A stretch of DNA of 64,000 nucleotides. Origin: Phycisphaerae bacterium. Lineage in GTDB: Bacteria > Planctomycetota > Phycisphaerae > Phycisphaerales > SM1A02. A model generated the notes under the pieces. The model saw only the letters and a program-made list of their open reading frames with translations, was not told the DNA's origin and did no database searches. Within the stretch, counting starts at the first letter, position 1; each line of letters opens with the position of its first letter. The position numbers and the translations under genes are program-made. The stretch spans positions 1 through 64,000 of the forward strand of contig VGXO01000002.1 of the NCBI GenBank assembly GCA_016873275.1, read 5' to 3'. Of this stretch, positions 44,117 through 62,857 are shown piece after piece.

Positions 44117-44144
44117 TTGACCGAGAAGGTTCTGATCCTATTCT
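44117..44144 (+). promoter_or_regulatory. Strong sigma-70-like promoter
   Basis: TTGACC and TATTCT are 16 bases apart, close to consensus in a GC-rich background. A leader of about 145 bases follows before the ATG at 44295, with AAGGAG as ribosome binding site. Confidence 0.6.
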
Positions 44145-44294
44145 TCGCTCCATCGACCCCATCCGAGTCGTTCTCGGAAGCGAAGGAGGTCGGGAATGAA
44201 CTCGAGGATCGGCGGACCGATCCTCGCGACTCGGATGGTCGATACCCGTCGTTCGCGACTGGGATCACCCACGAAGGAACTCAAGGAGACACCC

Positions 44295-44603
44295 ATGAAG
44301 ACGTTCAGCCTGTTCGCCGCCGCCGCCCTCGTCGCCGCCCTCGGTGCGTGCGCGACCGTCAACACGAAGGACACCACCGCCAACCCCGGCGCCGTCAGCG
44401 GCAAGAGCGACTGCTCGAGCTCCTGCGGCGACAACGCCGCCCCCGGCGCCGTCAGCGGCAAGAGCGACTCCTGCGGCACCAAGACCGACTGCTCCTCCAA
44501 GTCGTCCTGCGGCGGCGAGGCGAGCATGGGCGCGGTGAGCGGCAAGAGCGACTCCTGCGGCTCGAAGGCGAGCTGCTGCCCGATGAGCAAGAGCTCGACC
44601 TGA
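44295..44603 (+). CDS. Small cysteine-rich repeat lipoprotein
   Basis: This 102-residue protein has a lipoprotein signal (AAALVAALGAC, Cys19). The mature part is built from the octapeptide GAVSGKSD, which occurs three times exactly, each followed by a Cys/Ser-rich spacer (CSSSCG, SCGTKTDCSSKSSCG, SCGSKASCCPMS). Eleven or so cysteines in about 80 residues suggest disulfides or metal binding. No known family is evident. It has the strongest promoter in the window and a long leader, so it is probably abundant. The DNA repeats encode the peptide repeats. Length change by repeat slippage is likely between strains. Confidence 0.7.
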   Translation: MKTFSLFAAAALVAALGACATVNTKDTTANPGAVSGKSDCSSSCGDNAAPGAVSGKSDSCGTKTDCSSKSSCGGEASMGAVSGKSDSCGSKASCCPMSKSST

Positions 44604-44646
44604 GTCGAGTCCTCGGTTCGTCGTTCCGGAACTCGTTCGATCCTCG

Positions 44647-44673
44647 CGACGCCCGCCACCTCGGCGGGCGTCG
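44647..44673 (+). terminator. Hairpin terminator after the Cys-rich lipoprotein gene
   Basis: CGACGCCCGCC pairs with GGCGGGCGTCG around a short loop, followed by TGCTTTGT. It starts 43 bases after the stop codon. Confidence 0.65.
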
Positions 44674-44775
44674 TGCTTTGTGGTGCATCGGGGTCGGTCG
44701 CGGCGACTCCGTCGCGGTGATCGAGGACGCTGGGCCCCGCTATCATCGACCCGCCCTTCGACCGGAGAACGCTCG

Positions 44776-49110: not shown

Positions 49111-49845
49111 TCAGTTCCGGCGACGACGGCCCGCGAGACCCGCGAGCCCGAGGAGGGCGAGTGCGCCCGGCGCGGGCACCACGGTGCCATTCATGATGAA
49201 CGGAAGGGCGTAGCCCAGACCATTCGTCCCATCGACCGCGTTCGCCCACACGCCGGTCGCGACGTTGAACTGGCGGGCGTTGCCGATGATCGGCGCCACC
49301 GGATCGCTCACGAGCGGGCACCAAGGACCCGAGGCGAGGGTGCCGGTCGTCGCGAACTCGACCCAGTACGCCCCGTTGCCGAGGTTGATGTTGAGTCCAT
49401 CGGCGAGGAGGTTCATGATCGGTCGCTGCGTGTTGGTCAGCGTGGTCGACGTGACCCGGTAGATGTTCGAGAACGCGCTCGAGGTGAGCAGGTTGGTGGT
49501 CATGTCGCCCCAGACCACGCTGCCGCCCTCGCCAGGCGTGCCGTTCCAGATCTGGGCGAAGAGACCGGTGAAGGTCGAGGTCGTCGTGGAATTGGTCTGG
49601 TACCCGAAGAACTGCATGCTCGTGATGTTCCAGCCGCCACCGGTGACGGTGAAGTCCTCGGCGAACCGGAACGTCGCGTTGTTGAAACCGCCTCCGAAGG
49701 TGCCCTGACCCGGCGAGATGGCGCTCGCATTCGCGCCGCCCGCGCCGGCACCTGGATTCGTCACCAGCGGACCGTTGTCCCACAACTGCGCAGACGCCGA
49801 AGTCGCCACGCACGCCACCACCATGCCAAACGTCAAGCCACGCAT
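49111..49845 (-). CDS. PEP-CTERM sorting-domain protein
   Basis: This 244-residue exported protein has a signal peptide (1-19, ending TSASAQ). The Thr/Asn/Gly-rich beta body (GFNNATFRFAEDFTVTGGGW, FAQIWNGTPGEGG) ends with VPAPGALALLGLAGL and RRRR, the PEP-CTERM tail: a Pro-containing motif (here P-A-P), a hydrophobic helix and basic residues. In the family the tail is cut by an exosortase and the protein is placed on the surface or in exopolysaccharide. No exosortase gene lies in the window. GAGGAG is close to the ATG. Confidence 0.88.
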   Translation of the reverse strand: MRGLTFGMVVACVATSASAQLWDNGPLVTNPGAGAGGANASAISPGQGTFGGGFNNATFRFAEDFTVTGGGWNITSMQFFGYQTNSTTTSTFTGLFAQIWNGTPGEGGSVVWGDMTTNLLTSSAFSNIYRVTSTTLTNTQRPIMNLLADGLNINLGNGAYWVEFATTGTLASGPWCPLVSDPVAPIIGNARQFNVATGVWANAVDGTNGLGYALPFIMNGTVVPAPGALALLGLAGLAGRRRRN

Positions 49846-50196: not shown

Positions 50197-50976
50197 TCAG
50201 CCGCGGCGGCGCCGCGAGCCGGCGAGCCCGGCGAGACCGAGCAGGGCGACCGCGCCAGGAGCGGGCACCAGCGTGCCCTCGACGTCGAGGTAGAAGTAGG
50301 AGGGGGTCGGGGAGGAGAACGCCCAGTTGTCGACGATCGGCACCGTCGGGTCGTAGGCGGCGAAGTAGTTGAACGCCGCGCCCACCGCCGGCGCGTTGGT
50401 GATGCGCCAGCCGTTCAGGTTGCTCGTCGCGTTCGCGCCCTCGAAGCGGAGACCGACGAAGAAGCCGGAGAAGCCGGGGTTGCCGGAGCCGACGAGGTCG
50501 GTCATCGCCACCGTCGCGCCGCCCGCCGACACCGAGACGAGCGTCGTGGCGCTCGCCGCCGCGGCGGCGACCGAGACCAGACCGAGGTCCTGCACCGACG
50601 CGCCGATCAGGTCGCCGTTCGTGTCCATCTGACCGAGGTAGACGCGGAGGTCGACTGCGGGCGCCCCGCCGATCTGTCGGATGCCGAAGGTGAGCGCGTC
50701 GATCGTCGCGCTCGTGTAGGAGCCCGCGAACACGCAGTTCGTGAAGGCGATGGTGTTCGCCGAGGTGTAGCCGCCCGGCAGCGGCGCACTCGCCTGCGGG
50801 TTGTAGCGCGATCCGGTCTCGGTGCCGTGCTGGAAGATCAGCGAGCCGGAGAGCGGCGTCGCGCCAGCACCATGCAGCTCGTGGGAGACCTTCCCGATCG
50901 GATCGGTCGCGAGCGAGTCCGCCGCCGCGAGCGGGGCGATCGCCAGCATCGTCATCACGCCAAGGACCTTCTTCAT
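50197..50976 (-). CDS. PEP-CTERM sorting-domain protein
   Basis: This 259-residue protein has a signal peptide (1-20, ending LAAADS). The body is rich in Ala/Gly/Ser with beta-strand alternation (GYTSANTIAFTNCVFAGS, VDLRVYLGQMDTNGD), and the tail is VPAPGAVALLGLAGLAGSRRRR, in two parts, nearly the same as in the neighbouring gene. The bodies differ, so the two share the sorting tail and terminator more than a fold. The ATG at 50976 was chosen because the signal begins there; the frame upstream is Pro/Arg-rich. Confidence 0.86.
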   Translation of the reverse strand: MKKVLGVMTMLAIAPLAAADSLATDPIGKVSHELHGAGATPLSGSLIFQHGTETGSRYNPQASAPLPGGYTSANTIAFTNCVFAGSYTSATIDALTFGIRQIGGAPAVDLRVYLGQMDTNGDLIGASVQDLGLVSVAAAAASATTLVSVSAGGATVAMTDLVGSGNPGFSGFFVGLRFEGANATSNLNGWRITNAPAVGAAFNYFAAYDPTVPIVDNWAFSSPTPSYFYLDVEGTLVPAPGAVALLGLAGLAGSRRRRG

Positions 50977-51320: not shown

Positions 51321-54095
51321 ATGCCCGACCCCGCCGCCTCTCCGCCGCCCTTCTCGACGCCAAGACCACGTCCGCCCCGGGCGTGGTCCTGGCGGGAGTT
51401 CTGGACCCGCCGACTCGCGGACCTCGTCCTCCGCGCGCCGTGGACGATCCTCGCGATCTCCGCGGCGCTCGCGATCGGCGGGGCGGTGCTCGCGTGGCGC
51501 GGACTCGGACTCGACGCGGACACCAACAGCCTCATCGCGCCCGACCGCCCATTCATGAAGCTCTACCGGGCGTTCCTCGAGGAGTTCGGCGACCTCGAGT
51601 ACCTCTACGTCGTCGTCGACTCGCGTCCTTCCGGCGGCGAGGATCCCGACGACCGCGGACGACGCGCCGCGGAGTCGGCGGTCGACGAGTTGATCGAGGG
51701 ACTGCGATCGATCCCCTCGCTTCCGGCGGTCCACGGCCGCATCGAGCCATCCGAGCAGCTCCGCCTCGCGACGCGGGCGATGGAGATCGATCGCCTCGAG
51801 GCGCTCGCGACCGCCTCCGGCGGCGTGGGCGACCTCGCCTCGGGCGATGCGACCACGGCGATCCGCGGCGCGTCGGAGCGCCTCGCGACGCTCCTCTCGC
51901 GAGGACTCGCCCTCGACGATCGTGCGCGGCGGACGCTCGCCGCCGAGGCGATCCTCGTCCTCGACGTCGTCGCGTCGGCGGAGGGAACGGGCGGCGCCGA
52001 GCCATCGCTCGCCGAGCCGCCCGACCCGCAGTACCTCCGTTCCGACACCGGACGCATGTACTTCGTCGCGGTGATGCCCGCGAAGGACTTCGGACGGCTC
52101 GAGGCGATCGCGGAGCCTCTCGCGGCGATCCGGAAGGTCGTCGCCGAGGTCGCGGCGCGGCACCCGGAGGTCGAGATCGGGCTCACCGGCAAGCCGGTCC
52201 TGCAGGCGGACGAGCTGTCCACGACGAACGAGGACATGCGCCTCGCGACCGGGATCTCGTTCTCGATCGTCGCGGGACTCTTCGTGGTGGTCTTCCGCGG
52301 TCTCCGCCGACCGCTGCTCGCGATCATCGCGTTCGCGATGGCGTTCGCCTGGACCTGCGGCGTCGCGGCGCTCCTCGTCGGTCACCTCAACCTGCTGAGC
52401 ATCGTCTTCACCCTCGTCCTCGTCGGCGTCGGGCTCGACTATGGCGTCCACGTCGTCGCCCGCTTCATGGAGGCGCGCCGGCGACGGCTCGCCTCCGGAG
52501 CGATCCGCGACGTCATGCGCACGGCGGTGCCCGGCAACGTGACCGGATCGCTCACGAGCGCCGCGGCGTTCCTCCTCGCGCTCACCACCACCTTCGAGGG
52601 GCTGCGCGAGCTCGGGGTCATCGCGGGATCCGGGCTCCTGCTCTGCGCGCTGGCGATGTGCGTGGTGCTGCCGGCGCTCCTCTGGCTCACCGAGCGGCGG
52701 GGTCGCCGCTCGGCACGAGAGCCCCTGCCGCCGCCCTCCGCGGTCGTCGAGACGGTCGCGCGGCGCCGCCCGCCGGCGCGAGCGCCGGACGTCCTCCTCC
52801 TCGCGGCGGTCGGGCTCGTCACCCTCGCGGGCATCGTCCTCGCCGCTCGCTCGCTCCGCTTCGAGACGAACCTTCTCGAGCTGCAGGCGGAGGGTCTCCC
52901 GAGCGTCGAGTGGGAGCATCGCGTCTTCGACGATTCGGTCTCCGCGAGCTGGTTCGGGGCGATCGTCGTGCCCGACCTCGCCGGGGCTGCCCGCGTCGTC
53001 GACGCCGCGAAGGACCATCCCGAGATCGGTCGAACCGCAAGCATCCTCGACCTGATCCGACCCGAGGACGACCGCCGCATCGCCGCCCGCGCGAGGATCC
53101 GGTCGGCGATCGAGCAGGCGCCGGCAGCCTCGGTCGCCTCCGACCGGTGGACTCCCGCGGAGCTCTCGACCGCCGCGGACCGCCTCGCGCTCCTCGCCCG
53201 CGCCGCCGCCTCGCAGGCGCCGGAGGAGTCGCGGCGGCTCCTCGCGACGAGCGAGCGGCTGCGACGCCTGATCGACCGCCTCGAAAAGACTGGCGCCGAT
53301 GCCGACGCCGACGACGCCCACGACGCCCACGACGCCCGCGCCGCGATCGACGTGGCGATCGAGTCCGCCTCCTCGAACCTGCGCCTGATGGCGGAGGGCG
53401 ACGGCGCTCGACTTCGGGAGGCGCTGCCCGCGGCGCTTCGCGATCAGATGATGGCGCCCTCCGGTCGATTCCTCGTGCGGCTCATGCCGAACGGGGATGC
53501 CTGGAGCCTCGAGCCCCTCGAGCGGTTCGTCGAGGCGATCCGCTCGATCGACCCGCAGGCGACCGGCGTCCCGATGACCCAGCTCGAGTCGATCCGCGAC
53601 ATGACGCGGGCGTTCATGCAGATGGCGATCCTCGCCTTCCTCGCGGTCGCGATCCTCGTCTGGCTCGACTTCCGCAGCGTGCTCGCCACGCTCGTGTGCC
53701 TCTGCACGCTGGTGGTGGGGCTCGGCTGGACCCTCGGCGCGATGGCGGCGAGCGGCACCTCGCTCAACCTCGCGAACTTCTTCGCGGTGCCGATCCTGAT
53801 GGGACTCGGCATCGACTCGTCGGTGCACCTCGTGCACCGCGCTCGGGAGCAGCGGGGCGGGCGGATCCGCTACGGCGCGACTGCGAAGGCGGTGGTGCTG
53901 ACCGCGGCGACCACCGCGATCGGCTTCGGGGCGCTCGTCTTCGCGAGCCACCGTGGACTGCAGACGCTCGGCATGGTGATGCTCGTGGGCAGCATCGCCT
54001 GCCTCGGCGCCGCGATGCTCGTGGTGCCGAGCCTGCTCCGCCTCGCGGGGTGGGAGCGACGGCGTGCCGCTCCCGGCGAGGGTCGCGCGCCATGA
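51321..54095 (+). CDS. RND/MMPL-superfamily transporter, HpnN-like
   Basis: This 924-residue protein has two MMPL halves. TM1 is at about 40-60, followed by a periplasmic loop beginning LGLDADTNSLIAPDRPF, which resembles hopanoid transporter HpnN (TDTN-LIS-DLPW). TM helices 2-6 cover about 310-450 (SIVAGLFVVVFRGLRRPLLA, VGVGLDYGVHVVARFMEARR in pieces). TM7 lies near 495, then a second loop, and helices 8-12 at about 770-900 (MGLGIDSSVHLVHRARE, ATTAIGFGALVFASHRGL). The GLDYG/GIDSS motifs carry the proton-relay Asp. It moves a lipid or similar molecule; hopanoid is only a guess. The second loop has a DAHDAHDA run from 9-base repeats. Its stop overlaps the next ATG. Confidence 0.82.
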   Translation: MPDPAASPPPFSTPRPRPPRAWSWREFWTRRLADLVLRAPWTILAISAALAIGGAVLAWRGLGLDADTNSLIAPDRPFMKLYRAFLEEFGDLEYLYVVVDSRPSGGEDPDDRGRRAAESAVDELIEGLRSIPSLPAVHGRIEPSEQLRLATRAMEIDRLEALATASGGVGDLASGDATTAIRGASERLATLLSRGLALDDRARRTLAAEAILVLDVVASAEGTGGAEPSLAEPPDPQYLRSDTGRMYFVAVMPAKDFGRLEAIAEPLAAIRKVVAEVAARHPEVEIGLTGKPVLQADELSTTNEDMRLATGISFSIVAGLFVVVFRGLRRPLLAIIAFAMAFAWTCGVAALLVGHLNLLSIVFTLVLVGVGLDYGVHVVARFMEARRRRLASGAIRDVMRTAVPGNVTGSLTSAAAFLLALTTTFEGLRELGVIAGSGLLLCALAMCVVLPALLWLTERRGRRSAREPLPPPSAVVETVARRRPPARAPDVLLLAAVGLVTLAGIVLAARSLRFETNLLELQAEGLPSVEWEHRVFDDSVSASWFGAIVVPDLAGAARVVDAAKDHPEIGRTASILDLIRPEDDRRIAARARIRSAIEQAPAASVASDRWTPAELSTAADRLALLARAAASQAPEESRRLLATSERLRRLIDRLEKTGADADADDAHDAHDARAAIDVAIESASSNLRLMAEGDGARLREALPAALRDQMMAPSGRFLVRLMPNGDAWSLEPLERFVEAIRSIDPQATGVPMTQLESIRDMTRAFMQMAILAFLAVAILVWLDFRSVLATLVCLCTLVVGLGWTLGAMAASGTSLNLANFFAVPILMGLGIDSSVHLVHRAREQRGGRIRYGATAKAVVLTAATTAIGFGALVFASHRGLQTLGMVMLVGSIACLGAAMLVVPSLLRLAGWERRRAAPGEGRAP

Positions 54096-55060
54096 CGAGG
54101 TCCTGGGCGGGTCCGCGTCCGACCCCGATGCAGCGCCACCTGCTCGACGCCTGCCTTGATCCGGACGAGCACCGTGCCGCGGCGGCATGGTTGGCGTGGC
54201 GGTCCCGCTGCGACTTCGACGAGGAGGATCCCGCGAGCCATGAGCTCGCCTCGCTCGCGGTCGCCCGCCTCGGCACCGCCTTGGCAGGCGAGGCGACCTC
54301 CGCCCGCAGCCTCGGGTGGCATCGACGGGCGTGGTATCTCTCCGAGCTCGCCGCAGGCGCCGCCGAGAGGATCGCGAGCTCCTGCGAGCAGCGTGGTCTC
54401 CACGCGATCGCGCTCGGCGATCTCGCCGCCTCGCTTCATGGGATCACCTTCGCGGGGCGCCGGCTGCCGATCCGCTCGATCGAGGTGCTCGTCCCGGGCG
54501 TCGATCGATCGACCCGATCGATCCTGCTCGAGGTCGCTGGCTCGGATGCCGTGGGCGAGGCGATCCGGGCCCGTCGCCTCTCCTGCGTCATCCTCGACGC
54601 GTCGCAGGATCGCTTCGCCGCACCCCTGAACTCCGCGCCCCGCGGTGGGAGCGGACTCGCCCTGCCCTCGCTCGGAAGCATGCTCGCGCGGCTCGCCGCG
54701 AGGAACTGGTGCTGGAGTCCGCCCGATCGGCTCCGCTGGATGATCGAGGCGGCGGCGATCCTCGACGCGCCTCCGGCGACGCCGCGACTGGCGGAGGAGC
54801 TTCGCGACTCGCTCCACGCGTCGGAGTCCGGTGCCGCAGCGGCGCCCGCGCTTCGGGCGCTCCGGTCGATCCTGCCGAGCGGGACGAGTCCCGATCGCCT
54901 CGATCGCCTCGACCTCGCGATCGACGCGGCCGCGGGCGCGCTGGGGGGACCGCGGGCGAGGCTTCGCGCCTGGGTCCGACGGCACCCGCCAGACTCGCTC
55001 CTCGCGCGAGCACATCGGACGCTTGGTCGCTGGCGGCGGTGGCGTGGTTCGGCGGGCTGA
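54092..55060 (+). CDS. Degenerate NTP_transf_5-like nucleotidyltransferase
   Basis: This 322-residue protein has the layout of the NTP_transf_5 family: a helical N-terminus, then LHAIALGDLAASLHGITFAGR and RRLPIRSIEVLVPGVD, in pieces, where active members read K-G---L-------R---DIDLLV. The aspartates that bind metal (D-D) are replaced by S-E here, so catalysis is doubtful. The C-terminal half is helical, including SLGSMLARLAARNWCWSPPDR. It overlaps the transporter by ATGA, so the two are co-translated. The family assignment is by eye and tentative; the next gene is an intact relative. Confidence 0.5.
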   Translation: MTRSWAGPRPTPMQRHLLDACLDPDEHRAAAAWLAWRSRCDFDEEDPASHELASLAVARLGTALAGEATSARSLGWHRRAWYLSELAAGAAERIASSCEQRGLHAIALGDLAASLHGITFAGRRLPIRSIEVLVPGVDRSTRSILLEVAGSDAVGEAIRARRLSCVILDASQDRFAAPLNSAPRGGSGLALPSLGSMLARLAARNWCWSPPDRLRWMIEAAAILDAPPATPRLAEELRDSLHASESGAAAAPALRALRSILPSGTSPDRLDRLDLAIDAAAGALGGPRARLRAWVRRHPPDSLLARAHRTLGRWRRWRGSAG

Positions 55061-55220: not shown

Positions 55221-56297
55221 ATGCCGCAGCGACGCGTCGATGAGCTGCTTCGACTGTTTCTCGCCGAACTCGTCGGCGGCGGTCAGGCCGATCCTCCGGC
55301 GCTGCGGCGCGGTCTCGCCTCGCTCGACTCCGGCTCGCTCGACGGGCTTCGGTTCTCCGCCGATGCGAACCGCGTGCTGCCGGCGCTGGGCTTCGTGCTC
55401 GACCAGGGTCCGGACTCCGACCTCGTCCCGGATCGGCTCCGCACGCCCGCGGTGAACGCCTGGCGGGCGAACCGCCTCCGCAACCGCGCCATCGTGCTGC
55501 TCGCCGGTCGCGTGCAGAAGGTCCTCGAGTCGATCGGCGAGCGACCGATCCTCTACAAGGGAGTCCACTACCTCGACTGGCTCTGGCCCGACGTGGGCTC
55601 GCGGCGGCTCCAGGATCTTGATCTCGTGATGCCAGGCGCCGACGTCCCTCGCGCCATCGCGGCGCTGCGTCAACTCAGCTTCGAGCCGGTCGAGGAGCCG
55701 GCGAGCGATGCGATCCACCTCCGCCACCCGATGGGACTCGAGGTCGACCTGCATCATCGGTTCCAGATCTTCGAGGACCTGGACCCTTCCTCCGCCACGG
55801 TCGCCTACTCGCCTCGCCTCGACCCGACCCACCGATGGCGGGTCTTCGAGCCGGATCGGGAACTCGCGACGCTCATCCACCACCACTGCAGCGAGCACAT
55901 GGAAGCCGAGGGCGCGAGGCTCTGCTGGATCGCCGACCTCGCGCTCCGCCTCCGTGCCGCCGACGCGCAGGACCCCCGCCGGGTCCTTCCGCTCGTCGGC
56001 GACGAGCGGCGCCTCGCTCGCGCGGGATGGCTCATCGCGCTGATCGAGGAGTCGCTGGGCGTGCCGCTTCCCCGCTGGCGGGAGGCGCTTCCTCCCCCGC
56101 GGGACCGCGCGGACTGGGCGACCGCCATGGCGTCGAACCGCATGCTGCCCTTCGGGCTGCCGGGAGCGCGAGGATGGGCGAAGCTCCTGCTCGCGGGAAG
56201 CGGGATTCGACGCGCCCGATGGGGACCGCGACCTTCCCTCACAGACCTCCGACGCCTGCCGGCGGTGATGCGATCCCTCGGGTCGCCCTCCCGATAG
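55221..56297 (+). CDS. NTP_transf_5-family nucleotidyltransferase
   Basis: This 358-residue protein has the PF14907 pattern: a helical N-terminus, RPILYKGVHYLDWLWPD (KG motif), RRLQDLDLVMPGADV, with the D-D metal pair, MGLEVDLHHRFQIF, with a third acidic position, and ELATLIHHHCSEHMEAEGARLCWIADLALRL in pieces. These proteins occur beside HprK-like kinases and PqqD-like proteins in glycan and lasso-peptide-like clusters; their substrate is unknown. An alternative ATG at 55122, with GGAGAGG close by, would add a Leu/Pro-rich peptide coded by the 18-bp repeat and is less likely. Confidence 0.75.
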   Translation: MPQRRVDELLRLFLAELVGGGQADPPALRRGLASLDSGSLDGLRFSADANRVLPALGFVLDQGPDSDLVPDRLRTPAVNAWRANRLRNRAIVLLAGRVQKVLESIGERPILYKGVHYLDWLWPDVGSRRLQDLDLVMPGADVPRAIAALRQLSFEPVEEPASDAIHLRHPMGLEVDLHHRFQIFEDLDPSSATVAYSPRLDPTHRWRVFEPDRELATLIHHHCSEHMEAEGARLCWIADLALRLRAADAQDPRRVLPLVGDERRLARAGWLIALIEESLGVPLPRWREALPPPRDRADWATAMASNRMLPFGLPGARGWAKLLLAGSGIRRARWGPRPSLTDLRRLPAVMRSLGSPSR

Positions 56298-56527: not shown

Positions 56528-58501
56528 ATGACCCCGCCGCCACCCACCCCGACATCCGGCGTCCCGATCGATCGACGCCGCGTCGCGGTGGTGATCCCGG
56601 TCTACGACCACGAGCGCTACGTCGAGGAGGCGATCGCAAGCGTGCTCGCGCAGACGCGACCGCCGGATCGACTGGTGGTCATCGACGACGGCTCGCGCGA
56701 CGGCTCGGTCGCGGCGGCGGAGCGGGCGATCGCATCGGCCGGCTCGATCGCCGTCGAGTTCCGCGTCCAGACCAACCGCGGCACCGCGCGGACCCTCAAC
56801 GAGACGATCGCGAAGCTCGACGAAGAGGTCGTCGGCATCCTCAACTCCGACGACGCCTGGCGGCCAACCCGCCTCGAGCGCCTGCTGCCGGAGCTCGACG
56901 CTCGTCATCCAAGCATCGTCTTCAGCGGCGTCGAGTGCTTCGGCGACGCCGAGCAGCCGGACCTCGCGATGTTCCCGCGATGGATGGAGATGTCGTTCGC
57001 CCTCGGGCGGTGCTTCCCGACGGTTGGCTTCAGCCTGCTCATCTCGAACATCGCGATGAGCACCGGCAACTTCCTGTTCACCCGGGACCTCCACCAGATC
57101 GCGGGCGGCTTCGACGAGTCGATGCCGATCTGCCACGACTGGCAGTTCCTGCTCGACGCGCTTCGCGTCACCGAGCCGAGGTTCGTTCCCGACCCGCTCT
57201 ATCGCTACCGCATCCACGGAACCAACACCTATCGGCGGCACGCGGATCCATCCGGCCGCGAGATGCGCCTCCTGCATCACGCCTACTTCTCCTGGGCGAC
57301 GGCGCCGACCGGCAATCCCCTCGCGCCGACGCCGCGGAACTTCCCGCGGTGGATGCCCTTCTTCGTTCCGGCGTGGCTCCGGTCCCTGCCCGCCGGCTGC
57401 CAGATGGTCCCGAAGCACCTGCTGCAGCTCGCCGCGGCATCGCGGGACGGCGACCATGCCCTCCCGATCGAGATCGAGCGAGAGTCGATCGCCGCATCGC
57501 TCGAGAGGCTCCGCCGCCAGCCGGACGCCTCGGACTCCCTGCCCCTCGATGCGGCTCGCGCGGCGGCGAGCCGACGGTGGTCGGCGACTCGCGACCGCGT
57601 GGCGACGCCGCCGCGTCCCGTGCCCGCCTCCGCGGGTTGGGCAGCGCGGTTCGGATGGGCTGGCGCCTCGACGACGGTCACCGCGCACTCCGTCGAGGTG
57701 CTCACGGACCTCGCCGACCTCACCGGTCTCGTCCCGGAGCCCCTCATCCTCGCCAACGGTCGCGCGGAACTCAACGCACTGCATGATCGGGAGGTGTTCG
57801 TGCAGGAGCAGTACCGCGTCTTTGCATGCCGGGAGGACCGCCTGATCTGGATGGCGTTGACCCTCGGCGAGTTCCTGGCCCGACACGCCGCCTGCCCCCT
57901 GCTCCACGCCGCGTCGATCGAGTTCGACGGTCGAGTCGCGCTGCTCTGCGGCCCGCCATTCGCCGGCAAGTCGACGACCACCCTTGGCGCGATCGCGCGA
58001 GGACTGCGCGTCCTCGGCGACGATCAAGTGCGGGTGGCGGAGGGCACGCCGCTCGTGCAGCCGCTGCCGCGTCCGGTAAAGCTGCGGGTGCCGCTCGATG
58101 CGCCGCTTCCCGAAGGCGTCCGGGAGGTCGATCGCCCCGTGCGCGGCATGCTTGAGGACGAGGAGACGCTCATGTTGCGCCGACTTGGAACCGTCTCGCC
58201 GGAGGCCTGGCTGCCGGTGGCGGCGATCTTTCATCTGACGCGGAGCGACGGCGCGGGCTGCACGCAAGCCCGGATCGACGCCTCCGCGGCTCGCTCCCTG
58301 CTCGCGTCGCAGCTGCGCGGCCCCGCTGCCGAAGACCCGCGGGCGCTCGACACCAGCCACGCCGGACTGCTCGAGGTCCCACACTTCAGCCTCGCGGTCG
58401 GCGCTGATCGCACCGACGAGGCACTTGATCTGATCGAACGAACGATGCGAACCCTCGCCGGCGACGACCGGCATGCCTCCTGCTGGAAGCCGCTTCGATG
58501 A
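56528..58501 (+). CDS. GT2 glycosyltransferase fused to an HprK-like kinase domain
   Basis: This is a 657-residue two-domain protein. Residues 18-250 form a family-2 glycosyltransferase: VAVVIPVYDHERYVEEAI, LVVIDDGSRDGS, VVGILNSDDAWRPTRLE (the DxD equivalent is SDD), and SMPICHDWQFLLDALR. After a linker, residues 400-640 resemble HPr-kinase-related proteins: CPLLHAASIEFDGRVALLCG, P-loop GPPFAGKST at 475-483, RVLGDDQVRV and QPLPRPVKLRVPL. HprK relatives in such clusters phosphorylate unknown targets. The fusion ties the kinase to sugar transfer. The stop overlaps the PqqD-like ATG by 4 bases. Confidence 0.82.
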   Translation: MTPPPPTPTSGVPIDRRRVAVVIPVYDHERYVEEAIASVLAQTRPPDRLVVIDDGSRDGSVAAAERAIASAGSIAVEFRVQTNRGTARTLNETIAKLDEEVVGILNSDDAWRPTRLERLLPELDARHPSIVFSGVECFGDAEQPDLAMFPRWMEMSFALGRCFPTVGFSLLISNIAMSTGNFLFTRDLHQIAGGFDESMPICHDWQFLLDALRVTEPRFVPDPLYRYRIHGTNTYRRHADPSGREMRLLHHAYFSWATAPTGNPLAPTPRNFPRWMPFFVPAWLRSLPAGCQMVPKHLLQLAAASRDGDHALPIEIERESIAASLERLRRQPDASDSLPLDAARAAASRRWSATRDRVATPPRPVPASAGWAARFGWAGASTTVTAHSVEVLTDLADLTGLVPEPLILANGRAELNALHDREVFVQEQYRVFACREDRLIWMALTLGEFLARHAACPLLHAASIEFDGRVALLCGPPFAGKSTTTLGAIARGLRVLGDDQVRVAEGTPLVQPLPRPVKLRVPLDAPLPEGVREVDRPVRGMLEDEETLMLRRLGTVSPEAWLPVAAIFHLTRSDGAGCTQARIDASAARSLLASQLRGPAAEDPRALDTSHAGLLEVPHFSLAVGADRTDEALDLIERTMRTLAGDDRHASCWKPLR

Positions 58502-58911
58502 CCAATCACCTGAAATCCAACGTCGCCCGATTCCCCAGCGAGACCATCGAAGGCGAGACGATCCTCATCGACTCCGAGAAGGGCGTCGTCCTACTCCTCG
58601 TCGGATCCGCTCCGTGGATCTGGACGCGGTTCGACCAGGGCGCAGACCGCGACGCCGTGATCGCCGAACTCGCCGCGGCCTACGGCGCCTCCGCCGCGTC
58701 CGAATGCTCGACGTTCATCGAGTCCATGATCGCGGCCGAACTGCTCGGCCCGGCGGCCGAGGCGAAGTCGGACCCCTATCCCTTGCCGGAGTCGTACACG
58801 CCCCCGTCGATGGAGACCTTCGAGGACATCTCCGAGATCATCATGATGGACCCGATCCACGAGGTGGATCCGAACGCGGGCTGGCCGAACCGGGACACCC
58901 GCGATCACTGA
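58498..58911 (+). CDS. PqqD-like (RRE-type) protein with acidic C-terminal tail
   Basis: This is a 137-residue protein. Residues 1-82 follow the PqqD pattern, a winged-helix peptide-binding fold: SETIEGETILIDSEKGVVLLL, in pieces, then APWIWTRFDQGADRDAVIAEL and STFIESMIAAELL. In RiPP pathways such domains hold the precursor leader. Residues 85-137 are an unusual tail: PYPLPESYTPPSMETFED, ISEIIMMDPIHEVDPNAGW and a final PNRDTRDH. The tail is acidic with aromatic and Gly-Trp-Pro elements and could be a docking segment or itself a substrate. The ATG overlaps the kinase stop, so both are made together. Confidence 0.75.
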   Translation: MTNHLKSNVARFPSETIEGETILIDSEKGVVLLLVGSAPWIWTRFDQGADRDAVIAELAAAYGASAASECSTFIESMIAAELLGPAAEAKSDPYPLPESYTPPSMETFEDISEIIMMDPIHEVDPNAGWPNRDTRDH

Positions 58912-58954: not shown

Positions 58955-60058
58955 ATGGACACCTTCGACACGCCGGTCGCGATCGTCCTGTTCAACCGCC
59001 CGCGGCGGGTGGCCGAACTGATCGAGCGACTCCGCTCCTCGAAGCCGCGCCGGATCTTCGCGATCGCCGACGGCCCTCGCGCCGACCGCGAGGGCGAACG
59101 CGAACGCTGCGAGGCGGCCCGCGCTGCGCTCGACGCCATCGACTGGTCCTGCGAGATCGTCCGTGAGTTCGCCGCCTCGAACCTCGGTTGCGACGATCGG
59201 CTCGAACAGGGACTCGACTGGCTGTTCGATCGCGTCGATCGCGCGATCGTGCTGGAAGACGACATTCGTCCCTCGCCCCGCTTCCTGCCATGGGCGATCT
59301 CGATGCTCGATCGATATGGGGACGATCCGGATTTCTCGATCGCGAGCGGGCACAACGCGCTCGGGGCCTGGGGCGATCAGGACGCCGATCACCTGCGGGC
59401 CCGACGTGGCAGCATCTGGGGCTGGGCGACCACCGCCCGATCATGGCGGCGAAGCCGGGCGATCGATCTCTCGACGCTCGACGCCGGAGTCGACGCCTGT
59501 CTCGGCCTCGCGGATCTCGATCCGCTGCTCGCCGAGCATTGCCGGCTGATCGTCGCCGAGGCGCGCCGCGTGCGACGTCTCGCGTGGGACACCTCCTTCT
59601 CGGTGCGGACGATCCTCGACGGGCGGATCGCCGCGGTCTCCTCGGTCAATCTCGTCGAGAACACCGGCATCGGAGCCGACGCCACCCGAACCACGTTCGC
59701 CGGCGACTTCGTCGCGACACTGCCAGCGAGCGATCGCACACCGGTTCGGGACGGAACGCCCGGCGGTCTCGATCCCCTCTACGACCGCCGCTCGCTGATG
59801 GCGGAGCTTCTCGGTCGATGCAGGCAACCGAAGATGGCGGGCCATCTGGCTCGGCTTCTACAGTCCAATCCCGCCGCCCCGATCGATGCGGCGACCCGAC
59901 TGCACCTCGCGCCGTTCTCACATCCAGAGGAGTCGATCGCGATCCTCGATCACCTCGCTGAGCACGGCGCCTCGTCGAGGTCCCTTGAGGAGATCCGATC
60001 GAAGCTCCGCGGCATGTCAAGTGCCGTGGGCAGCGCCGTGCACGGGAGCGACCGATGA
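58955..60058 (+). CDS. GT-A-fold glycosyltransferase
   Basis: This 367-residue protein begins VAIVLFNRPRRVAELIERL, with RRIFAIADGPR, ASNLGCDDRLEQGLDWLF, and DRAIVLEDDIRPSPRFLPW, where LEDD is the metal-binding D-D of GT-A enzymes. The pattern resembles GT13-like or hemolysin-HlpA-type nucleotide-sugar transferases: a front-end N-(R/x)P, a back-end E-DD-. SIWGWATTARSWRR is typical of this group. The C-terminal 100 residues are helical. Sugar and acceptor are unknown. A GTG three bases upstream is a possible start; AGGA precedes the ATG. The next gene overlaps by ATGA. Confidence 0.8.
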   Translation: MDTFDTPVAIVLFNRPRRVAELIERLRSSKPRRIFAIADGPRADREGERERCEAARAALDAIDWSCEIVREFAASNLGCDDRLEQGLDWLFDRVDRAIVLEDDIRPSPRFLPWAISMLDRYGDDPDFSIASGHNALGAWGDQDADHLRARRGSIWGWATTARSWRRSRAIDLSTLDAGVDACLGLADLDPLLAEHCRLIVAEARRVRRLAWDTSFSVRTILDGRIAAVSSVNLVENTGIGADATRTTFAGDFVATLPASDRTPVRDGTPGGLDPLYDRRSLMAELLGRCRQPKMAGHLARLLQSNPAAPIDAATRLHLAPFSHPEESIAILDHLAEHGASSRSLEEIRSKLRGMSSAVGSAVHGSDR

Positions 60059-60729
60059 CCGTGCCCGTCACCGCCATCGTGCCGGTGCGGAACGGGGCTT
60101 CGCATCTGGCGAAGGCCCTCGCCTCGATCGCCGAAGCGACGGTCGCGGAGACGATCGTCATCGACGGAGGATCGAACGACGGCTCGATCGAGATCGCCCG
60201 TGGCTCGCGTGGCGTGCGGCTGCTGCATCAACGCTCGCGAGGTCTCGCGGCGGCTCGCAACGAGGCGATCGCGGCCGCCACGCAACCGTTCATCGCCTTC
60301 TGCGACGCCGACGACCGCTGGGAATCCGCAGGTCTCGCGTCGCTGCACGACGCGCTCGCCGCCGCACCGGATCGCCTCGCGGCGATCGGGCTGGTCATGC
60401 CGGTCGCGCTCCACGGCGACGTGGCCACCGACGCCCAACGAGATCGGATCGGGACGCCGCTTCCCGGATTCACGCCGGGCGCCATGCTGGCCCGACGCGA
60501 CGCCTTCGAAGCGATCGGCGGCTTCGACGAGTCGCTCGAGATCGGGGCCGACAGCGACTGGTTCGTTCGCCTCGTGCAGTCGGGCCTTGGGCCCGTCCGC
60601 GTCGATCGACTCGTGCTCCGCAAGGGCATGCGGTCGACGAGCCTGTCCGCCGACGTCGAGCGCTACCGATGCGAGTGGCTCCGCATCGCCGCGGGCTACC
60701 TGCGTCGCCGCCGCGAGAGCACGCCGTGA
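60055..60729 (+). CDS. Family-2 glycosyltransferase
   Basis: This compact 224-residue GT2 enzyme has VTAIVPVRNGASHLAKAL, ETIVIDGGSNDGS, RGLAAARNEAIAAAT, FIAFCDADDRWE (metal-binding DAD) and GGFDESLEIGADSDWFVRL, with the acceptor-side E-D. It ends soon after the core fold, with no membrane anchor. It should add one sugar to a lipid-linked or protein-bound glycan in the cytoplasm. It overlaps both neighbours by 4 bases (ATGA before, GTGA after) in a tightly coupled run. Confidence 0.88.
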   Translation: MTVPVTAIVPVRNGASHLAKALASIAEATVAETIVIDGGSNDGSIEIARGSRGVRLLHQRSRGLAAARNEAIAAATQPFIAFCDADDRWESAGLASLHDALAAAPDRLAAIGLVMPVALHGDVATDAQRDRIGTPLPGFTPGAMLARRDAFEAIGGFDESLEIGADSDWFVRLVQSGLGPVRVDRLVLRKGMRSTSLSADVERYRCEWLRIAAGYLRRRRESTP

Positions 60730-62138
60730 GGCTGCTTCACGTCATTCCCCGGTTCATCGGTGGTGGTCCCGAACGGGATCTTCTGGCGATGATCGCCGCG
60801 TGGCGTGCGGTCGGACTCGCGAGCGAGCACGAGGTCCTCGTGCTCGATCGTCCGATCTCCGCCCCGTTGCTGCTTCGTGCGAAGCGGCTTGGAGCACACG
60901 TCCACGGACGTTGCGATGCGGCGACGCTCGATCATGCGATCGAACAGGCCGACGTCGTCTCGATCGACTACTGGAACCATCCCCTCCTGCTCGACGCGAT
61001 GCGCCGTTCCTGGCCGGCCGCCCGCATCCTCGTCCGGACGGCGGTTCGGGGCACCACGCGACCGCATGTCGCCACCGCCGAGCTCGGCGACTTCGCCGAT
61101 CGCCTGCTGGCGTCGAGCCCGCGGACCCTGGCTTCTCCTGCTGCGGAGGCGATCCGCCATCGCGGCGGCATCGCCGAGTGGTCGCCGGCCCTTGCGGACA
61201 TGTCCCGCCTCGACCACTTCCGGCCCACACCGCACGACGGCTTCCGCATCGGGCACGTGGGCCTCGTAGGACCAGCCAAGCTCCATCCACGCTTCGCGAA
61301 ACTATGCGCGGCGGTGCATCGTCCGAACGTGGGCTTCGACGTCTTCGGACCGGGTCACCTCGACGAGCTGCGGCAACGATTCCATGAACTCGGTCTCGCG
61401 GAGCGCGCGATCGTCCACGGGCCCACCGAGGATCTCGCCTCGGCCTTCGCCGGACTCGACGCGATCGGGCATCCGCTCGCCCCGGAGGGGTATTCCACCA
61501 GCGAGAAGTCGGTGCAGGAGGCGATGTGGGTGGGACTGCCGGTCGTCGTCCTCGCGGGAACCGGCGCCGACGACCTCATCACGCACGACGTCACCGGACT
61601 CGTCGCGGCGGACGAGCACGAGTACCCGCGCCAGCTCGAGCGACTCGTGGACGATGGGTCGCTGCGGCGTCGTCTTGGCGAGAACGCCAGGTCCCACGCC
61701 CGCGAACACTTCGATCCCGATCGCAACGCCCGTCGCTTCCGCGCGATCTTCGAGTCGATGCTCGACCACCCCAAGCGCGAGCGGGAACCGCTTCCGGGCG
61801 CCGGCGAGCCGGCGGCGAGGCGCTTCGTGCAGTCGATGGGCCACCTCGCCGGTCCCTTCGCGATCTCGCTCGCCGGCGCTTCGGTGCACGGCGGTCCGGC
61901 GGTCGCCGCCGCCGAGTCCGAGATCGCCGCCTCGCCGGGCGTCGTCGCCGACGCGGAAGGCGGCGTGATCCACCACCGCAACACCTTCTCCGACGATCCG
62001 CACCTTCGGATGTGGAGCAGCCTGATCGCCGAGCACCGTGGCGATCATGCCCTCGCCGCGGGCGAGCGTGCCTTCGCCGTCGAGCGCGGCGTGCATCCGG
62101 TGTTCCGGCCCGCTCGGGCACCGGTGGACGGCTCCTGA
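60726..62138 (+). CDS. GT4-type glycosyltransferase with C-terminal extension
   Basis: This 470-residue GT-B enzyme has N-terminal RLLHVIPRFIGGGPERDLLA, GHVGLVGPAKLHPRFAKL, VGFDVFGPGHLDELRQRF, and the donor-binding block YSTSEKSVQEAMWVGLPVVVL, with LAPEGYSTSEKS in place of the usual E-fG. The classic fold ends at about residue 360 (HAREHFDPDRNARRFRAIF). Then 100 residues follow with no recognised domain (SMGHLAGPFAISLAGASVHG, FSDDPHLRMWSSLIAEH). The GTG start overlaps the preceding stop. Sugar and acceptor are unknown. Confidence 0.82.
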   Translation: MRLLHVIPRFIGGGPERDLLAMIAAWRAVGLASEHEVLVLDRPISAPLLLRAKRLGAHVHGRCDAATLDHAIEQADVVSIDYWNHPLLLDAMRRSWPAARILVRTAVRGTTRPHVATAELGDFADRLLASSPRTLASPAAEAIRHRGGIAEWSPALADMSRLDHFRPTPHDGFRIGHVGLVGPAKLHPRFAKLCAAVHRPNVGFDVFGPGHLDELRQRFHELGLAERAIVHGPTEDLASAFAGLDAIGHPLAPEGYSTSEKSVQEAMWVGLPVVVLAGTGADDLITHDVTGLVAADEHEYPRQLERLVDDGSLRRRLGENARSHAREHFDPDRNARRFRAIFESMLDHPKREREPLPGAGEPAARRFVQSMGHLAGPFAISLAGASVHGGPAVAAAESEIAASPGVVADAEGGVIHHRNTFSDDPHLRMWSSLIAEHRGDHALAAGERAFAVERGVHPVFRPARAPVDGS

Positions 62139-62188: not shown

Positions 62189-62857
62189 ATGAACGACGCC
62201 CGACGCTATCACGGACTGCACGGTCTCGACCTGAAGATGCGGCGGCATCTCGACTTCGACCGAGGGTACTTCGTCGAGGTCGGCGCCAACGACGGGGTGT
62301 CCCAATCCAACACGCTTCACTACGAGCGGCACCGCGGCTGGCGAGGCGTGCTCGTCGAGCCCTCGCATGCAAACTACTTCAAGTGCCGCGCGAACCGCTC
62401 GCCCGAGACTCGGGTCTTCTGCGCGGCGTGCGTCCCGTTCGGATACACGGAGCGCTTCGTGCCGATGCTCTACGCGAACCTGATGTCGGTCTCGGAGCTC
62501 GATGGATCGGATCTCCCTGATCCACACGAGCATGTCGAGAGCGGGCGGAAGTACCTCGCGCCTCAGGAGGACGTGATCGCCTACGGCGCGATCCCTCGGA
62601 CACTGAACGAGATCCTGCTCGAGGCCGACGCACCCGAGCTTGTCGACTTCTTTTCGCTCGACGTCGAAGGTTCGGAGCTCGCGGTGCTGCAGGGCATCGA
62701 CCACGCAAGGTTCCGCTTCCGGCATCTCCTCGTCGAGTGCCGCGGTCTGCCTCGGATGGACGCCTTCCTCGCGTCGCACGGCTACCGGCATCTCGAGCAG
62801 CTCTCCGAACACGACCATCTCTTCGTGGACGCACGACGCTCGCCGACGTCGCCATGA
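62189..62857 (+). CDS. FkbM-family methyltransferase
   Basis: This 222-residue SAM methyltransferase of the FkbM type shows GYFVEVGANDGVSQSNTLHYE, in pieces (the GA-DG motif I), GWRGVLVEPSHANYFKC, and FFSLDVEGSELAVLQGID, the EG-E motif typical of the family. FkbM-like enzymes O-methylate sugars or polyketides and are common in glycan clusters. It follows the GT4 gene by 50 bases and closes the locus. The start ATG lies after a CT-rich stretch without a ribosome binding site. Confidence 0.9.
   Translation: MNDARRYHGLHGLDLKMRRHLDFDRGYFVEVGANDGVSQSNTLHYERHRGWRGVLVEPSHANYFKCRANRSPETRVFCAACVPFGYTERFVPMLYANLMSVSELDGSDLPDPHEHVESGRKYLAPQEDVIAYGAIPRTLNEILLEADAPELVDFFSLDVEGSELAVLQGIDHARFRFRHLLVECRGLPRMDAFLASHGYRHLEQLSEHDHLFVDARRSPTSP

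Follow-up and report, generated by a model that had tools for sequence, protein, structure and literature searches.

A single gene in the window (the whole 64,000-nucleotide stretch of DNA analysed here) encodes a 657-aa protein in which an N-terminal GT2 glycosyltransferase is joined to a C-terminal HprK/PEPCK-fold kinase. The fusion is real and conserved, not an assembly error, and it is probably functional. It recurs in two phyla with its catalytic residues intact, is linked in an operon to genes for an RRE and an NTP_transf_5 nucleotidyltransferase (Table 1), and has an equivalent operon in which the parts are unfused. We propose, at slightly better than an even chance, that it is a bifunctional peptide-tailoring enzyme (kinase and glycosyltransferase) of a PqqD(RRE)-dependent RiPP-like pathway; its substrate, its chemistry, the order of its steps and the sharing of one molecule by both domains are what we infer.

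Table 1. Features of the fusion locus, in window coordinates.
Feature	Position	Strand	Basis
HpnN-like RND/MMPL transporter	51321..54095	+	upstream of fusion in 3/3 genus members; uncertain whether it belongs to the system
Divergent protein, possibly a degenerate NTP_transf_5 relative (tentative)	54128..55060	+	hhalign to NTP_transf_5 set: probability 44%, E=2.4e-4
NTP_transf_5 nucleotidyltransferase	55221..56297	+	PF14907 E=5.6e-24; G114/R128/D132/D134 kept
GT2–HprK-like fusion protein, 657 aa	56528..58501	+	ORF, PF00535, TIGR04352, gene caller; full-length orthologues known
GT2 glycosyltransferase domain (residues 16-280)	56573..57367	+	PF00535; Z 19 to 6p61; invariant columns
HprK/PEPCK-fold kinase domain (residues 370-645)	57635..58462	+	AlphaFold model; PEPCK and 2qmh structure matches; 1ko7 profile match
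Kinase active-site block: H460, P-loop GPPFAGKST (K481), D498-D499, PLPRPVKLR	57905..58087	+	invariance in five fusions
PqqD-family RRE, 137 aa	58498..58911	+	PF05402 E=2.3e-7, 31.5 vs 23.4 bits
PqqD C-terminal tail, YTPPSM–ETFEDISEIIMMDPIHEVDPNAGWP: leader-like motif and conserved DPIHE…GWP	58795..58887	+	sequence comparison
Conserved neighbour without Pfam match	58955..60058	+	directly after fusion in G002 too
Short GT2 glycosyltransferase	60055..60729	+	PF00535 E=2.8e-20
GT4-type glycosyltransferase, start uncertain	60726..62138	+	PF00534 E=3.9e-15
FkbM-type methyltransferase	62189..62857	+	PF05050 E=4e-15

Translation of the ORF gave one stop-free frame, and a codon-usage gene caller picked identical ends. 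All motifs quoted in the first-pass annotation were found: IPVYDHERYVEEAI (residues 23-36), ILNSDDAW (104-111), GPPFAGKST (475-483), LGDDQV (496-501) and PLPRPVKLR (512-520). That annotation did not know the architecture as a described one, and we found no paper describing a GT2–HprK fusion in the literature searched. It would have given up the fusion if the two domains were always separate genes in homologues and the joined frame an assembly error; the full-length fusion was found in four other assemblies, and so is neither chance nor artefact. The records of the relatives are titled as metagenome-assembled genomes and the window's genome consists of 136 contigs; however, the architecture and domain boundaries are the same in five assemblies from two phyla, and the probability of an assembly error or chance ORF is negligible.

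The GT2 assignment of the N-terminal half held (PF00535, E=3.6e-23, 82.8 bits against a cut-off of 23.3), and the GT-A motifs DDGS, DxD-like NSDD and a late HDW are present. Against crystal structures, the domain reached a Z of 19 (DALI-scale) with 6p61, over 181 residues at an rmsd of 2.9 Å. Its sites are the nucleotide-site DD53-54, the metal motif NSDD106-109 and HDW203-205; D53, D54, D108, D109, D204 and W205 are invariant in the alignment of five fusions, and the active site looks intact. The GT-A fold, DDGS and NSDD are common to the polysaccharide and teichoic-acid enzymes TarP, TarS and WrtF (PF00535); unlike these, the GT2 of the fusion bears a C-terminal kinase.

The C-terminal half had been called HprK-like, which proved correct for a divergent member. 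Family models aligned to it around the P-loop only, and all scored below their curated cut-offs: TIGR04352 (HprK-related kinase A), the top family match, at 41.1 bits against 200 (E=1.1e-10); PF07475 at 17.7 against 33.3 (E=0.0027); and TIGR00679 at 17.2 against 240. A profile of the five fusions matched the HPr kinases 1ko7 (E=1.5e-5) and 1jb1 (1.6e-4) over a span that starts at the histidine, includes the P-loop and ends at Asp-Asp. The full-length AlphaFold model was poor for residues 230 to 370; the kinase half modelled alone had a pLDDT of 86 and a pTM of 0.86, and aligned with PEPCK (Z 14, 263 residues, rmsd 5.1 Å) and with HprK/P 2qmh (Z 12.1, 139 residues, rmsd 3.8 Å). Profile and predicted structure together give this half the HprK/PEPCK fold, including its P-loop, histidine and Asp-Asp pair. 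The structure prediction proposed in the first-pass annotation as a check on the acceptor site was confident for this half and gave a complete fold.

None of H460, K481, D498 and D499 varies among the five fusions, which span two phyla; together they match the His-Lys-Asp-Asp set named essential in lasso-peptide kinases (PMC9266682). The kinase active site looks intact. The PF07475 and TIGR04352 scores, far under the curated cut-offs, would suit a catalytically dead half whose sole role is docking or the binding of nucleotide, but the invariance of these four residues and the complete predicted fold make this very unlikely. By curated cut-offs the fusion kinase is outside both HPr kinase/phosphorylase and HprK-related kinase A, with which it has the fold in common. 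It shares P-loop, DD and PxPRPxxLK-type motifs with HprK-related kinase A, whose strong matches found here are stand-alone frames of about 280-420 aa, whereas the kinase here is fused and below cut-off. With bacterial HPr kinase/phosphorylase (1jb1, 1kkl, 2qmh) it shares the fold, the P-loop and the positions of His and Asp-Asp; it differs in falling below the Pfam cut-off, in having additional N-terminal sequence alignable with PEPCK, and in the attached GT2.

Each of the three genus members sampled has the full-length fusion, the proteins of G001 and G002 being 65% and 64% identical to that of the window. An alignment of the kinase part, used as query, revealed it also in two freshwater Synechococcus (Cyanobacteria) metagenome-assembled genomes (L130, 45% identity; L131, 44%), giving five genomes in two distant phyla. 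Searches of 392 genomes from the phylum and 340 from the order gave no further fusion, and the two Synechococcus fusions were the only ones among 349 genomes of the Synechococcus order; these samples overlap and are part of GTDB. Single-protein queries returned no close relatives in scans of viral contigs or genome contigs, and a plasmid search for the fusion was empty. The genes around the Synechococcus fusions look cyanobacterial as read from their sequences, and the patchy pattern suggests horizontal spread. Two sets of candidates for further fusions were rejected. Long ORFs with a kinase match in L086-L097, low-GC loci L089 and L090 excepted because the gene caller failed there, showed no GT2 fusion, the kinase being a separate gene wherever the locus was resolved. 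A 789-aa frame around a GT2 match in G036 had no kinase among the genes called there.

The ATG of the PqqD gene overlaps the TGA of the fusion (ATGA), and the NTP_transf_5 gene lies ~230 bp upstream. PqqD-type proteins are RREs, with a peptide-binding fold that binds leader peptides. The first-pass annotation, right in its domain calls, had missed both neighbours. With them, tailoring of a peptide (RiPP-type) becomes a likelier role than sugar metabolism or the regulation of HPr. The product of the divergent gene upstream of NTP_transf_5 has homologues in G001 and G002. In G002 the gene 3′ of the fusion is not PqqD, and a tailed PqqD is on a different contig. Among the ten genes analysed at the locus there is no leader peptidase or MsbA-like exporter, and none of the ten (51.3-63.9 kb) matched a lasso cyclase (asparagine-synthase-like). 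No B2 protease (PF13471) lies beside the RRE; the only match of the genome is on contig C19, away from the window. The gaps of the cluster held no convincing separate precursor ORF apart from the PqqD tail.

Other loci in the window were also read. Two secreted-looking proteins (49111-49824 and 50197-50976, both on the minus strand) end in VPAPGALALLGLAGLAGRRRR, which reads as a PEP-CTERM-like sorting tail. A predicted ORF at 44138-44746 (-) contains the motif SLLPLTAP three times and is doubtful as coding.

The functions joined in the fusion occur as separate neighbouring genes elsewhere. In a distant genome (G253, locus L166), one operon encodes a tailed PqqD, an HprK-like kinase, two GT2s, NTP_transf_5 and a further glycosyltransferase; in G397 (L165), a tailed PqqD is followed by an HprK-like kinase, a GT4 and six GT2s. 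In four loci of other phylum members (L041, L042, L043 and L096), a stand-alone HprK-like kinase adjoins PqqD and NTP_transf_5; some gene assignments in L041-L043 and L165 came from reading translations, not from profile search. These arrangements indicate that the fusion joins two functions already travelling together. The first-pass annotation had offered two explanations of the physical link. The idea of a common substrate for the two domains gained support from the separate neighbour genes in L166 and L165 and from retention of the fusion in two phyla; the idea that one domain controls the other found none. Canonical HprK/P is a regulator, and a fused chain is compatible with control, so that the HprK-like domain could sense ATP or phosphate and switch the GT2, or phosphorylate partner proteins, outside the chemistry of the product. 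Because the unfused kinases stand in operons with PqqD and NTP_transf_5, not with regulatory genes, we regard such a regulatory fusion as quite unlikely.

Several related loci have other arrangements. Besides the fusion, Synechococcus L131 has a tail-less PqqD that is preceded by a 62-aa peptide with FTPPTV and followed by an S24/S26-type peptidase, a layout closer to that of LPP (linear polyphosphorylated peptide) clusters. A tail-less PqqD followed by GT2 was seen at L045:62-1419 (G002) and L052:6813-7708; the L045 GT2, which adjoins PqqD and has no kinase domain, is 38% identical to the GT2 of the fusion. A second locus in the window's genome (G000 C12 = L051:1437-5197) has an epimerase, three short GT2s and a DPIHE-tailed PqqD, without a kinase beside it. 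The NTP_transf_5 genes are at either the fusion locus or the second locus, depending on the species. Peptides of 50-65 aa with a twin-arginine-like sequence (SRRRFVSKLVKVGAVAIPV…SRAHAS) adjoin paralogous PqqD/GT2/NTP_transf_5 loci (G001 C108 = L052:6200-6391 (+), with a copy at L052:6506-6688; G002 C214 = L053:37-189 (-)) and are possible precursors; as precursors for the present locus they were set aside, having no match in the window's genome. A PqqD-like protein at L095:1311-1688 (-) has a C-terminal extension (RKPYTPMRLQEI…) with a Cys/Gly-rich end (GCTGVGGFVQECAVFPVGCGMGGCELI) and is possibly a second RRE–precursor fusion. Small, Cys-rich peptides that begin with hydrophobic sequence (L041:237-503 (-) and L087:4729-4953 (-)) lie beside HprK-like/PqqD genes, and L087 also encodes a radical-SAM-like protein that ends in PqqD-like sequence.

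The tailed PqqD is a more surprising part of the locus than the fusion. The protein of the window ends in YTPPSMETFEDISEIIMMDPIHEVDPNAGWP, and the tail consensus is [Y/W/F]xxPx[L/M/V/F]…DPIHE…GWP. Mean identity among 11 PqqD proteins was 52% in the tails against 24% in the bodies, part of the tail conservation being due to the way the matches were found. A tail profile searched against 392 genomes gave six strong matches outside the genus (E<=4e-10), and in all six an HprK-like gene immediately adjoins PqqD. At the sixth, L164, the kinase frame is a chimera: the ORF after the tailed PqqD (L164:7212-8672, +) is HprK-like at its start and UvrA-like from the P-loop, as though sequences had been recombined or misassembled at Walker A. 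[Y/W/F]xxPx[L/M/V/F] is present in 9 of the 11 tails, with M as last residue in that of the window, and by sequence it resembles [Y/W]xxPx[L/V/I/A/F/Y], the motif in leaders bound by discrete RREs (PMC13381572). The search profile did not cover the aromatic residue, which 4 of the 5 new matches nevertheless have; this is independent evidence for the motif. The 11 tails compared have no conserved Ser or Thr, and no paper on the tail motif was found. PqqD could itself be the precursor that it presents, with the RRE, a leader motif and a short invariant core (DPIHE…GWP) in one covalent chain that one kinase–glycosyltransferase modifies, and would then represent a new class of phospho-glycosylated RiPP-like products across Planctomycetota with a relative in Synechococcus. 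We consider this extension rather unlikely.

The set of RRE, HprK-like kinase and NTP-transferase found here is that of phosphorylated lasso peptides and LPP. Lasso precursors are the substrates of the kinases PadeK and PsmK, and PsmN puts a hexose on the phosphoserine (PMC9266682). The NTP-transferase gene of pseudomycoidin is required for the hexose on phosphoserine (PMC9266682); as the source of that sugar in phosphorylated lasso peptides, the review could not decide between the NTP-transferase and a glycosyltransferase distinct from it (PMC9266682). LPP clusters (LppA-K-B-S-D-N; Popov et al. 2026) are described as limited to Bacillota, and their kinase LppK polyphosphorylates a linear peptide that is bound by the RRE (PMC13381572). 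By analogy with both tailoring sets, the fusion probably works in a similar way.

With LPP, the locus shares a discrete PqqD-type RRE, an HprK-like kinase, an NTP-transferase, surroundings rich in glycosyltransferases, a YxxP-type motif and the absence of a lasso cyclase nearby. Unlike in LPP, the kinase is fused to GT2, the YxxP-like motif is on PqqD itself, and the flanking genes in the window include no SpI peptidase, MsbA exporter or LppA-type precursor; an RND/MMPL transporter lies upstream. The LppA-type motif YxxPxVLxHQxIxFETxxS was not found in the window, the only sequence of this kind being YTPPSM of the PqqD tail. The paeninodin and pseudomycoidin tailoring sets (PadeK, PsmK, PsmN) likewise have an HprK-like kinase with His-Lys-Asp-Asp, an NTP-transferase partner and an RRE partner; in contrast to them, kinase and glycosyltransferase form one chain here and no lasso protease or cyclase is adjacent. 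Because the leader peptidase, MsbA exporter, LppA motif, and lasso protease and cyclase are not beside the fusion, we did not class the locus as an LPP or a lasso cluster.

The richness of the cluster in glycosyltransferases, together with its methyltransferase, would also fit a surface-glycan enzyme, in which the GT2 extends a glycan, the kinase phosphorylates a sugar or lipid-linked acceptor to give a phospho-glycan, and PqqD only anchors or recruits. The top structure matches of the GT2 include polysaccharide and wall-teichoic-acid enzymes, and LPP clusters also occur in capsule loci (PMC13381572). However, the characterised kinases of HprK-like type with RRE partners act on peptides, and PqqD has a peptide-binding fold with a leader-like tail. 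We give the surface-glycan explanation an appreciable but minor probability.

The peptide-tailoring reading is supported by the PqqD overlap, the upstream NTP_transf_5, the unfused operons, the conserved tail with its motif and adjoining HprK-like genes, the His-Lys-Asp-Asp set, the peptide-kinase precedents and the gene content of Synechococcus L131. Counted against it are the lack of a precursor in the window, of a conserved Ser or Thr in the tail and of a peptidase or exporter among the ten genes, the gene other than PqqD that follows the fusion in G002 and the tail-less PqqD of L131. In the pathway that we propose, PqqD would present a peptide (the leader-like tail at its own C-terminus, or a short precursor encoded separately), and the HprK-like domain would phosphorylate a residue of it with ATP as donor. 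The fused GT2, alone or with NTP_transf_5 and the GT2/GT4 neighbours, would place a sugar on the same peptide or on the phosphate; NTP_transf_5 and the other glycosyltransferases could add further decoration. Such a pathway would yield a phospho-glycopeptide, perhaps one that is exported or sits at the cell surface.

The DPIHE…GWP tail provides a searchable signature, which located kinase operons without a named precursor gene. As a natural GT2–kinase fusion beside an NTP-transferase, the protein offers a single polypeptide for testing the coupling of peptide phosphorylation and glycosylation. On the reading proposed here, HprK/RRE/NTP-transferase peptide systems would extend to uncultured Planctomycetota and to Synechococcus.
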